Positions 8,992 through 11,073 of a DNA stretch of 64,000 bases are shown piece after piece. The notes beneath the pieces were generated by a model. The model made no database searches. It had not been told where the DNA came from and was given only the letters and a program-made list of their open reading frames with translations. Position 1 is the stretch's first letter. The number at the start of each line of letters is the position of its first letter. Source of the DNA: an uncultured Prevotellaceae bacterium (lineage in GTDB: Bacteria; Bacteroidota; Bacteroidia; Bacteroidales; Muribaculaceae); contig CAMVBJ010000005.1 in the NCBI GenBank assembly GCA_947165675.1, positions 1-64,000 of the forward strand, written 5' to 3'. Both the position numbers and the translations under genes were made by a program.

Positions 8992-9015
8992 TAGTTTTTA
9001 CCTTGACTACCCAAG

Positions 9016-9091
9016 AAAAACACGGCAAGATTGAGTGTGATGCCGTGAAAAACGAGAAACCCCGCTAAGCCCAACAAAGACTTAACGGGGT
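9016..9091 (-). terminator. Duplicated groEL terminators
   Basis: The two hairpins of the groEL terminator are repeated here: a stem of about 11 bp (ACCCCG.TAAG type) and a 7-bp CACGGCA stem followed by five T on the minus strand. Here they lie downstream of the transposase gene and probably end its transcript. Confidence 0.75.
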
Positions 9092-9122
9092 GTTATCGAT
9101 GAAAAATAACGGGAGTCGCAGC

Positions 9123-9210
9123 TTACATCATGCCACCCATGCCACCACCCATGCCAGGTGCTCCAGCAGGCATTGCGGGCTCGGGCTCCTTCTTCTCGGC
9201 AATCACGCAC
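9123..9210 (-). pseudogene. groEL 3' remnant created by target duplication
   Basis: Encodes the last 28 residues of GroEL (CVIAEKK... [10 protein letters not shown]) and a stop, with no upstream gene: at 9210 it runs directly into the IS end. It is identical to the end of the intact groEL at 10986 onward and has no promoter or start of its own. It marks the duplicated insertion target. Confidence 0.9.
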
Positions 9211-9219
9211 CTGACTTCG

Positions 9220-10773
9220 TCATTGCATACCCCAAAATTCGTCGGTGAACAAGGGGGCGATGCGCTGGTGCCTTCTCATGGGCATGGTTCGTGTCACTTT
9301 TTTCCCATTGGGCATCCTGATGGTGATGGTCGTTACGGACTTTGCCATGTCGAGCACCTTGTCAATGCTCATGCCGATATTCGCTCTCTTGAGCAGCCTT
9401 TCCAACTCCTTATATAACTTCAGAGCCACAAAGCAGATGCAGATGTGCGCCTCGATACGCCGTCGTGTGAAGTGGAACATGGGGCGTATCTCGATCTTTG
9501 ACTTGGCGATTCGGAAGGCTTTCTCCACATTCCAGAGGTTGTGGTATGCCGTGAAGACCTCATCTGTGGGGATGTCAGTATTGGTCAGGTAGCCCTTGAG
9601 GCCGTCCCATTGGGCATCCTGTATGATCCTGTCGCGGTTGATCTCGATTCTGGTGTTACCTGTCATGTCCAGGAACTTGTTGTAGCCTCTGCGGTTGATG
9701 TTCTCCTTGGTTAGCTGGCCTGTGCGGAACTTCTTCTCCAGTTTCTTGACGCCTTTGTCCCGGTTATGGGCGTCTTTTCTGGCGCGATCGTCGCTGTATC
9801 CGATCAACAGCCTGCGCCCGCGGCCCTTGTCTATCTCATGCATCCGCCCGCTCACTTTGCCCAGCGACAGTATCTGCCGCCTGATGTCCTCCGGCTCGTT
9901 CTTGATGCGGGCTCCGATGATGTACTTGTAGCCCTCATGCTCCAACTCGGCAATGTTGGCGCTGTTCATCAGTCCCGAGTCGGCCACCACGATGAAGCCG
10001 CCAAGGTCGTATCGCCGCACGAACTCGTTGATTACGGGCAGCATGGTGTGCCCTTCGTACTTGCTCCCCTCATGGATGCAATAGGCCAGCGGATAACCGT
10101 CAAGACTCACCAGCAGGCCCAGGATGATCTGCGGATTGCTGTGACGGCCTTCCTTGGAGAAGCCCGTTCTGCGCAGCTCGTCCTCATGGTCGGTCTCGAA
10201 GTAGAGCGTGGTCACGTCATAGAACATCACCCCGATGTGGCCGCCAAGCACTTCCATCGTATGCCTCACGCTGATGTCCTGCACAAGATACTTGTGGCGG
10301 TCGTTCAGCTTGTCCAGATAGCGGTATATCTTCGACAGGTCAACATCATCGTCAAAGTGGTTCTTCAGATACTCCACCGTCGCGGCTTTGCTTGCAGGGT
10401 AGGACAATCGGCTTAGCACCAACTGGCGGAACACCTTGTCCCTGATTTGGTTGAAGCCGACCAGGTCAAACACGCGGTCCAAGATCAGCTCGCATCCGTT
10501 GAGCTGCACATTCTCGATACGGTCGAAGATGTCGTCCTCCATGGCCGCTTCTGCACGGCGGTGACTCTCCTTTGAGCCGTCAAAGTCGATTGTCGGGTTC
10601 GTCCGTTCCTGCTGCTCGGCTATCCACGCATGGCCACGCTGCACAAGTACCGACACCTCATCCTCATCTGATGACACACCCATCGTGGCCAAACGTTTGA
10701 ACTTGCCACTGTTCTTCACGCCAACGATGACGCTAATGCTGCCCGAGCGGTTCTTGATTTTCTTGATATGCAT
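9220..10773 (-). CDS. IS1634-family (IS4-like) DDE transposase
   Basis: 517 aa from the ATG at 10773 (MHIKKIKNRSG), preceded by an AAAGG ribosome site about 10 nt upstream; the frame continues open to 10842 but that part overlaps the leader hairpin. Likely catalytic residues are D186 (FYDVTTLYFE), D265 (VADSGLM) and E417 in WNVEKAFRIAK, the Y/W-x-E-x-x-F-R-x-x-K pattern of the IS4 superfamily. The stop codon lies 9 bp inside the IS end, so the last codons overlap the terminal inverted repeat. No frameshift or stop was found. Members of this family cut and join DNA at the IS ends. Confidence 0.93.
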   Translation of the reverse strand: MHIKKIKNRSGSISVIVGVKNSGKFKRLATMGVSSDEDEVSVLVQRGHAWIAEQQERTNPTIDFDGSKESHRRAEAAMEDDIFDRIENVQLNGCELILDRVFDLVGFNQIRDKVFRQLVLSRLSYPASKAATVEYLKNHFDDDVDLSKIYRYLDKLNDRHKYLVQDISVRHTMEVLGGHIGVMFYDVTTLYFETDHEDELRRTGFSKEGRHSNPQIILGLLVSLDGYPLAYCIHEGSKYEGHTMLPVINEFVRRYDLGGFIVVADSGLMNSANIAELEHEGYKYIIGARIKNEPEDIRRQILSLGKVSGRMHEIDKGRGRRLLIGYSDDRARKDAHNRDKGVKKLEKKFRTGQLTKENINRRGYNKFLDMTGNTRIEINRDRIIQDAQWDGLKGYLTNTDIPTDEVFTAYHNLWNVEKAFRIAKSKIEIRPMFHFTRRRIEAHICICFVALKLYKELERLLKRANIGMSIDKVLDMAKSVTTITIRMPNGKKVTRTMPMRRHQRIAPLFTDEFWGMQ

Positions 10774-10789
10774 TGTTAAAAAACCTTTC

Positions 10790-10813
10790 GCATACCCCAA
10801 AATCGGGGTATGC
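10790..10813. promoter_or_regulatory. Palindrome in the transposase leader
   Basis: A 9-bp perfect inverted repeat (GCATACCCC / GGGGTATGC) with a 6-nt spacer lies just upstream of the transposase start. On the minus strand a TAACTTTG box (10812-10819 region) overlaps its outer edge. It may hold transposase or limit translation from outside transcripts; both are inferences. Confidence 0.45.
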
Positions 10814-10877
10814 AAAGTTACAACAAATTGTTTATCAAGCAATTATTTTTTAACACCGAAAACAGTGACGAAGTCAG

Positions 10878-11073
10878 GAAAAACACGGCAAGATTGAGTG
10901 TGATGCCGTGAAAAACGAGAAACCCCGCTAAGCCCAACAAAGACTTAACGGGGTGTTATCGATGAAAAATAACGGGAGTCGCAGCTTACATCATGCCACC
11001 CATGCCACCACCCATGCCAGGTGCTCCAGCAGGCATTGCGGGCTCGGGCTCCTTCTTCTCGGCAATCACGCAC
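10878..11073. repeat. Right copy of 196-bp direct repeat
   Basis: Matches 9015-9210. This copy is contiguous with the rest of groEL and supplies its real C-terminus and terminators. The outer limit of the repeat falls exactly at the end of the terminator's T tract. Confidence 0.93.
10879..10954 (-). terminator. groEL double terminator
   Basis: Two consecutive hairpins downstream of groEL: an 11-bp stem (10944-10954 with 10922-10932, one G-U pair) followed by a T-rich stretch, and a CACGGCA/TGCCGTG stem (10884-10910) followed by five T on the minus strand. Confidence 0.85.

Follow-up and report, generated by a model that had tools for sequence, protein, structure and literature searches.

A groEL-side insertion of an IS1634-family element, and its transposase clade with long, variable target duplications and two unlike junctions

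Most transposases cut their target at two points that lie a fixed distance apart. Elements of the IS1634 family are described in PMC2266710 (2008) as encoding DDE transposases with a YREK variant whose R is usually missing (it is present in 5 of 32 members), as measuring 1500-2000 bp with ends of the form C-----YT (Table 1 of that source) and as making target duplications of 5-6 bp. The exceptions listed there are IS1549 and IS1634, at 8-514 bp, and the same account states that no mechanistic model for such long, variable duplications had been proposed as of 2008. The short form is illustrated by ISGka5 (PMC8024623) and ISPfe2 (PMC3281130), both given with 6-bp direct repeats, and by Acidiphilium IS1634-1, with 6-letter repeats that a legend terms inverted repeats (PMC4549789); these three share the family name with the element studied here and differ from it in repeat length, as judged from their descriptions. 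The closest described systems are IS1634 from Mycoplasma mycoides SC and IS1549 from Mycobacterium smegmatis, which have the same transposase family and long variable repeats (PMC2266710). They belong to other hosts, and the account in PMC2266710 mentions no asymmetric target with a T-run at one end and C(T/A) at the other.

We analysed one such element in a 64,000-nucleotide stretch of DNA (the window) and compared it with its relatives. The element (9210..10878, minus strand, 1669 bp) has ends CCTGACTTCGTCA that form a perfect 13/13 bp inverted repeat, and it encodes a transposase of 517 aa (9220..10773, minus strand) whose DDE residues are D186, D265 and E417. An earlier note, made from the sequence alone, had called the element IS1634-type, and this identification is borne out by a score of 372.7 bits against the IS1634 family equivalog model (NCBIfam NF033559; cut-off 100). 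The YREK variant is present as Y-x2-L-x3-E-x6-K, and the size of 1669 bp and the ends (CCTGACTT) agree with the family description. Its duplication of 194 bp departs from the 5-6 bp given for the family in PMC2266710, a length that is typical rather than defining because that source itself lists IS1549 and IS1634 as exceptions. The two flanking copies are identical across 196 bp (9015-9210 and 10878-11073), far beyond chance, so that what the earlier note saw as perfect 196-bp copies around a 1667-bp element stands as regards identity. Its boundaries, however, move by one base on each side: sibling elements (L003 and L005) conserve the outermost C (9210) and G (10878) even though there these letters are not part of the repeat, and once these outermost letters of CCTGAC...GTCAGG are given to the element, both boundaries fall at offset 0 in all scored repeats. 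The duplication is therefore 194 bp long, with its left copy (9016..9209) made of the last 87 nt of groEL, a spacer and two stem-loops, and its right copy (10879..11072) running on into intact groEL. The element is single-copy in its own draft genome of 73 contigs. Between its end and the transposase start codon lies a terminator-like palindrome (10787..10816, minus strand; -20.4 kcal/mol, z -5.8), which may be a shield against read-through into the transposase gene or a binding site; one of its arms, GCATACCCCAAAAT, is found again near the opposite element end (9225-9238).

The insertion leaves groEL whole (10986..12626, minus strand, 546 aa, stop at 10986). The element abuts a TTTTT on the minus strand (10879..10883; left copy 9016-9020), directly preceded by a groEL-side stem-loop (CACGGC; 10884..10910, minus strand; left copy 9021-9047) that folds within 9010-9060 at -11.6 kcal/mol (z -3.8). 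A strong stem-loop resembling an intrinsic terminator lies downstream of groEL at 10922..10954 (minus strand), with its left copy (9059-9091) downstream of the transposase gene; folded within 9052-9100, it reaches -24.8 kcal/mol (z -6.4). A terminator consensus scan lists the stronger structure only, the loop of the weaker one being too long for the scan. Both stem-loops are duplicated, so groEL and the transposase gene are each followed by both, and the sequences predict that both end transcription. Since the second site is found within groEL, 87 nt from its end, and the T-run is the TTTTT of the terminator, the gene end is rebuilt. The claim that the copied segment consists of the groEL end and both terminator-like loops, sparing groEL and giving the transposase gene loops of its own, thus fits the measured content of the repeat. 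The further idea that a long duplication makes insertion harmless holds as a consequence at this site; it fails as a purpose, since 20 of 33 target T-runs, counting that of the window, have no strong hairpin before them.

The site before insertion can be seen in relatives. Across the genus, 86 of 101 genomes gave groEL, the window's genome among them, and we took regions from nine others (ten stretches). Five of them (L046, L047, L050, L051 and L052) have an empty site, in which a single groEL end stands next to the M1 family aminopeptidase gene that also lies beyond the insertion in the window (6476..8965, minus strand). In these five, 99-184 nt separate the groEL stop from the first Met codon of the frame that comes next, and in the conceptual empty form of the window 157 nt separate groEL from the peptidase gene. 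All empty-site relatives are other species, one genome having been compared per species. Two further stretches (L048 and L049) showed no peptidase match within the groEL stretch. A groEL fragment in genome G067 was considered as the scar of an older insertion and ruled out, as it belongs to a tandem duplication that takes in the neighbouring gene. Of the other two genomes, one (L043) has a diverged partial groEL copy within a tandem gene duplication; in the other, G018, groEL is split across two contig ends (L044 at 8913, L045 at 5528) with a one-base overlap.

The second part of our analysis concerns how far this pattern extends. Relatives were collected by protein and DNA searches plus extra stretches, with the best 80 of 85 relatives used in one search, wider searches in subsets of 297 and 392 genomes taken out of larger groups, and, for plasmids, 12 relatives fetched among 60 matches listed, 98 records having matched. 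Among the best 80 of 85, the nearest elements come from Muribaculaceae, Prevotellaceae and Bacteroidales records, several from ruminants. We examined 189 loci, including the window, and excluded 78 that had no transposase or no clear CC...GG ends. The remaining 111 represent 99 distinct insertions, 78 of which are flanked by 400 bp or more on each side. We call Bacteroidota-type all insertions except L105, L233-L238 and L243, a class defined by exclusion and not by a row-by-row phylum (the record of L118 is titled Clostridium). Anchored duplications of at least 12 bp are present in 49 of the 78 adequately flanked copies (44/71 Bacteroidota-type and 5/7 others), a count to be read with the choice of ends having favoured pairs that show a repeat. 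The earlier note had stated that IS1634 and IS1549 are reported to make long, variable duplications, which agrees with the 8-514 bp of PMC2266710, and had proposed measuring the repeats in relatives: there are 50 duplications in total, of 14-789 bp with a median of 89, and 37 of them are free of mismatches. L107 is left out of this total (its ends match at 8/13), and L203, with a nearby repeat that is not anchored, is counted as having none. The shortest duplication in the clade is 14 bp (L231), exactly the upper limit that the note had set for short duplications that would speak against its reading, and the next is 31 bp. No exact repeat of 3-11 bp was found in any of the 37 copies without a long repeat, each with at least 20 bp of flank. 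Duplication lengths show no helical phasing at periods of 10, 10.5 or 11. An element nearly identical to the window's (L002 in G018; L054, from RGIG3759, is apparently the same contig) is 99% identical in DNA, with the same ends and a T-run at one junction, but sits at a different site with a 90-bp duplication.

The two junctions of these insertions are unlike each other. Junctions were scored reading each flank into the element end in 79 Bacteroidota-type insertions, copies that are not phylogenetically independent. At least five T at one junction were seen in 29 of them, whereas random flank positions gave a mean of 0.65 and a maximum of 6 in 2000 simulations. The T-run is not universal, because 26 of the 79 insertions have fewer than three T at either end and it was not seen in the high-GC hosts fetched (L234-L237 and L243). 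At the opposite junction there is a C at -2 in 34/44 (null mean 24%, null maximum 60%, under a null that repeats the sorting by T-run), and C(T/A) in 28/44 (null mean 11%, null maximum 33%). Runs of at least three T at both ends occur in 3/79, all without duplication, and in 0/45 of the copies with duplication, 29 of which combine one T-run end with one C end. Either end of the element can take the T-run, which lies at the transposase 3' side in 31 cases and at the 5' side in 19, with 3 ties. In terms of strands, the T-run junction links an element end to 5'-AAAAA of one strand, whereas the opposite junction, mostly C(T/A), links an element end to 5'-(T/A)G of the other strand. Long variable duplications were already known for IS1549 and IS1634; what is new here is that the junctions differ, with a T-run at one and C at -2 at the other. 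We found no description of this asymmetry in the open-access literature searched, a scope outside which the original IS1634 and IS1549 papers lie, so that it may have been noticed there earlier.

Copies without an anchored duplication (27/71 Bacteroidota-type with adequate flanks, and 2/7 others) count against the reading given below. Three of the 27 (L056, L183 and L230) have diverged, gapped repeats. The clearest case is a single-contig genome (G460) with two copies, C1 2013391-2015054 (L193) and 2056513-2058176, whose flanks are reciprocally swapped: in the inverted partner, segments of 282 bp and 156 bp are found on the other side of the element, which is what an inversion of about 41 kb would produce if it took place between two element copies that had those duplications. 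In Prevotella bivia, the flanks of L087 map to opposite strands, separated by about 9-12 kb, in three relatives (G752, G764 and G765), an arrangement that points to an apparent inversion relative to them; paralogues of the flank make this case weaker. We also considered that L087 might have a hidden duplication of very large size and rejected this, as the last 500 bp of the left flank occur only once at full identity in the genome. End pairs of the same type (both T-run or both C) are found in 7/34 repeat-less copies vs 2/45 duplicated ones (Fisher p 0.034), a modest excess that fits flank swapping. Few of the remaining repeat-less copies are explained one by one.

Long duplications also go with a branch of the transposase tree. 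Outside the survey set, 6-bp repeats (TTACGT, TTGAAA, TTAGAA, TTGAGA, TTGTAA and TTACAA) were found in 6 of 36 further loci, another of the 36 having given no transposase; L210 (5 bp) and L220 (7 bp), whose short repeats adjoin weaker ends, are not counted with these six. Two of the 6-bp elements, L206 and L211, also have ends starting CCT, and were outside the 189 loci because the queries of the survey did not recognise them. In a midpoint-rooted tree of 119 proteins, each of at least 420 aa, a single clade (support 0.946) holds all 43 long-duplication proteins together with 43 repeat-less and 3 other-ended ones, and none of the six 6-bp proteins lies inside it. This split is partly conditional on sampling, because the set was picked by end type and family queries. 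A copy on a Mycobacterium riyadhense plasmid (608 bp), a stand-in for the type elements, lies inside the long clade, while another, a Mycoplasmopsis copy (108 bp), groups with L241 at a support of 0.263, the long clade then growing to 91 of 120 leaves without any 6-bp element. We file the window's element with the IS1549/IS1634-like, long-duplication branch of the family, IS1549 and IS1634 type transposases being represented by these stand-ins. L241 itself, on a Carnobacterium megaplasmid, is an IS1634-family copy of another end type (3108-3541 / 5505-5813), its transposase flanked by 175- and 144-bp identical repeats; it was not counted, and may be another long duplication, this one in Bacillota and with one of its copies interrupted by an insert. 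The context Y-x-x-L-W-x-(V/I)-E is found in 43/43 long-duplication proteins, if W may be replaced by Y (in three) and L by V (in one), and the six 6-bp proteins do not have the W of its LW-x-(V/I)-E part. The spacing between the second D and the E, with a median of 152 in long-duplication and 175 in 6-bp proteins, was considered as a marker and rejected as not clean, since the long range (147-198, actinobacterial proteins at 172-173) overlaps the 6-bp range (171-179).

Taken together, these results make it likely that the window holds a recent insertion by a member of an IS1634-family clade with long, variable duplications, its ends joined at a T-run and at a distant C(T/A) and the strands between them copied. 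The first element end would be joined at the T-run. The second would be attached to the opposite strand at a C(T/A) whose distance varies, so that the fixed spacing which DDE transposases normally keep would be absent. Strands lying between both nicks would then separate and each be copied, so that everything between them is duplicated. At groEL, the T-run would have been the TTTTT of the terminator and the second site the position 87 nt inside the gene, leaving both loops after groEL and after the transposase gene. That a whole branch of DDE transposases works by two target recognitions, T-run and C(T/A), which act on opposite strands at a distance of tens to hundreds of bases, with strand transfer uncoupled in space, is a broader proposal that we put forward tentatively, as falling just short of probable. 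Were the groEL end instead duplicated in tandem first, or by later recombination, the element would sit at the junction with an ordinary short duplication. A partial tandem copy does exist in one genome of the genus (L043), where the groEL 3' end is doubled (3848-4179 / 5388-5719, 332 bp at 97%) as a diverged partial copy that takes in the following small gene, with no IS present. Against this, repeat boundaries coincide base for base with element ends in the window and in all scored repeats, the same pattern recurs at unrelated targets in dozens of genomes, and pre-existing tandem groEL ends, which the earlier note had named as a possible refutation, are found in none of the five relatives, all of other species, with groEL beside the peptidase gene; we regard this origin as very improbable. 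A repeat misplaced by assembly, for which the 73-contig draft and a length of 194 bp near that of short reads would speak, is if anything more improbable still, as the pattern is also present in records labelled complete (Persicobacter, Aliarcobacter and Rhodococcus plasmids) and in the single-contig genome G460.

Two other explanations accept the duplication and place its cause elsewhere. The element might recognise a hairpin followed by a T-run, and duplicate the transcribed DNA upstream, for example in an R-loop. The window's site, which looks from its letters like a clear terminator, is consistent with such coupling to transcription termination, as is a hairpin of -8 kcal/mol or stronger before 13/33 target T-runs, vs 186/1550 controls and 3/33 other ends (33 of 36 insertions with at least four T being usable, the window's included, and control T-runs having 5-7 T). 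However, the other 20 of the 33 target T-runs do not have such a hairpin, which gives no support to terminators as the sole target in general, and a same-strand frame of at least 80 codons ends no more than 200 nt upstream in 17/33, vs 14/33 at the other end and 473/1550 controls. Surviving insertions would favour terminators anyway because genes are spared there, which perhaps accounts for the enrichment; T-runs look like the target, with terminators enriched among them, and we consider the coupling unlikely. Slightly less unlikely, though still doubtful, is a role for replication forks or gapped DNA, in which the transposase would dock on the sliding clamp and the ends be joined to separated strands, the distance between them reflecting the length of the single-stranded stretch. 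The Acidiphilium IS1634 transposase is reported to bind the beta clamp, with stronger binding raising transposition (PMC4549789), and a C-terminal Q...LF stretch is invariant in the window's transposase and four aligned relatives. Yet, among the 43 long-duplication proteins, 15 have a Q that aligns with this position, and the 6-letter terminal repeats given for the Acidiphilium element in PMC4549789 mean that clamp binding alone is not enough for long ones.

Our preferred reading, with ends joined at a T-run and a distant C(T/A), matters because the survey ties the trait to a transposase clade and to a repeatable difference between junctions, which provides target motifs and the LW-x-(V/I)-E signature to test. 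The asymmetric target rule thereby opens to testing the question for which, according to PMC2266710, there was no model in 2008. It also carries two cautions: in the long-duplication branch, a copy without repeats may mark a rearrangement, and repeat searches limited to 2-14 bp miss the true targets of long-duplication elements. Internally deleted, MITE-like derivatives of the window's element are present in the same genus, namely a 568-bp element (L155, at the same place as L008) with an 82-bp duplication containing two mismatches, and one of about 375 bp (L013) at which no duplication was seen. Several same-genus drafts also have short matches to the element ends at or near contig ends (L021, L024, L026 and others), which suggests multi-copy relatives that break assemblies.
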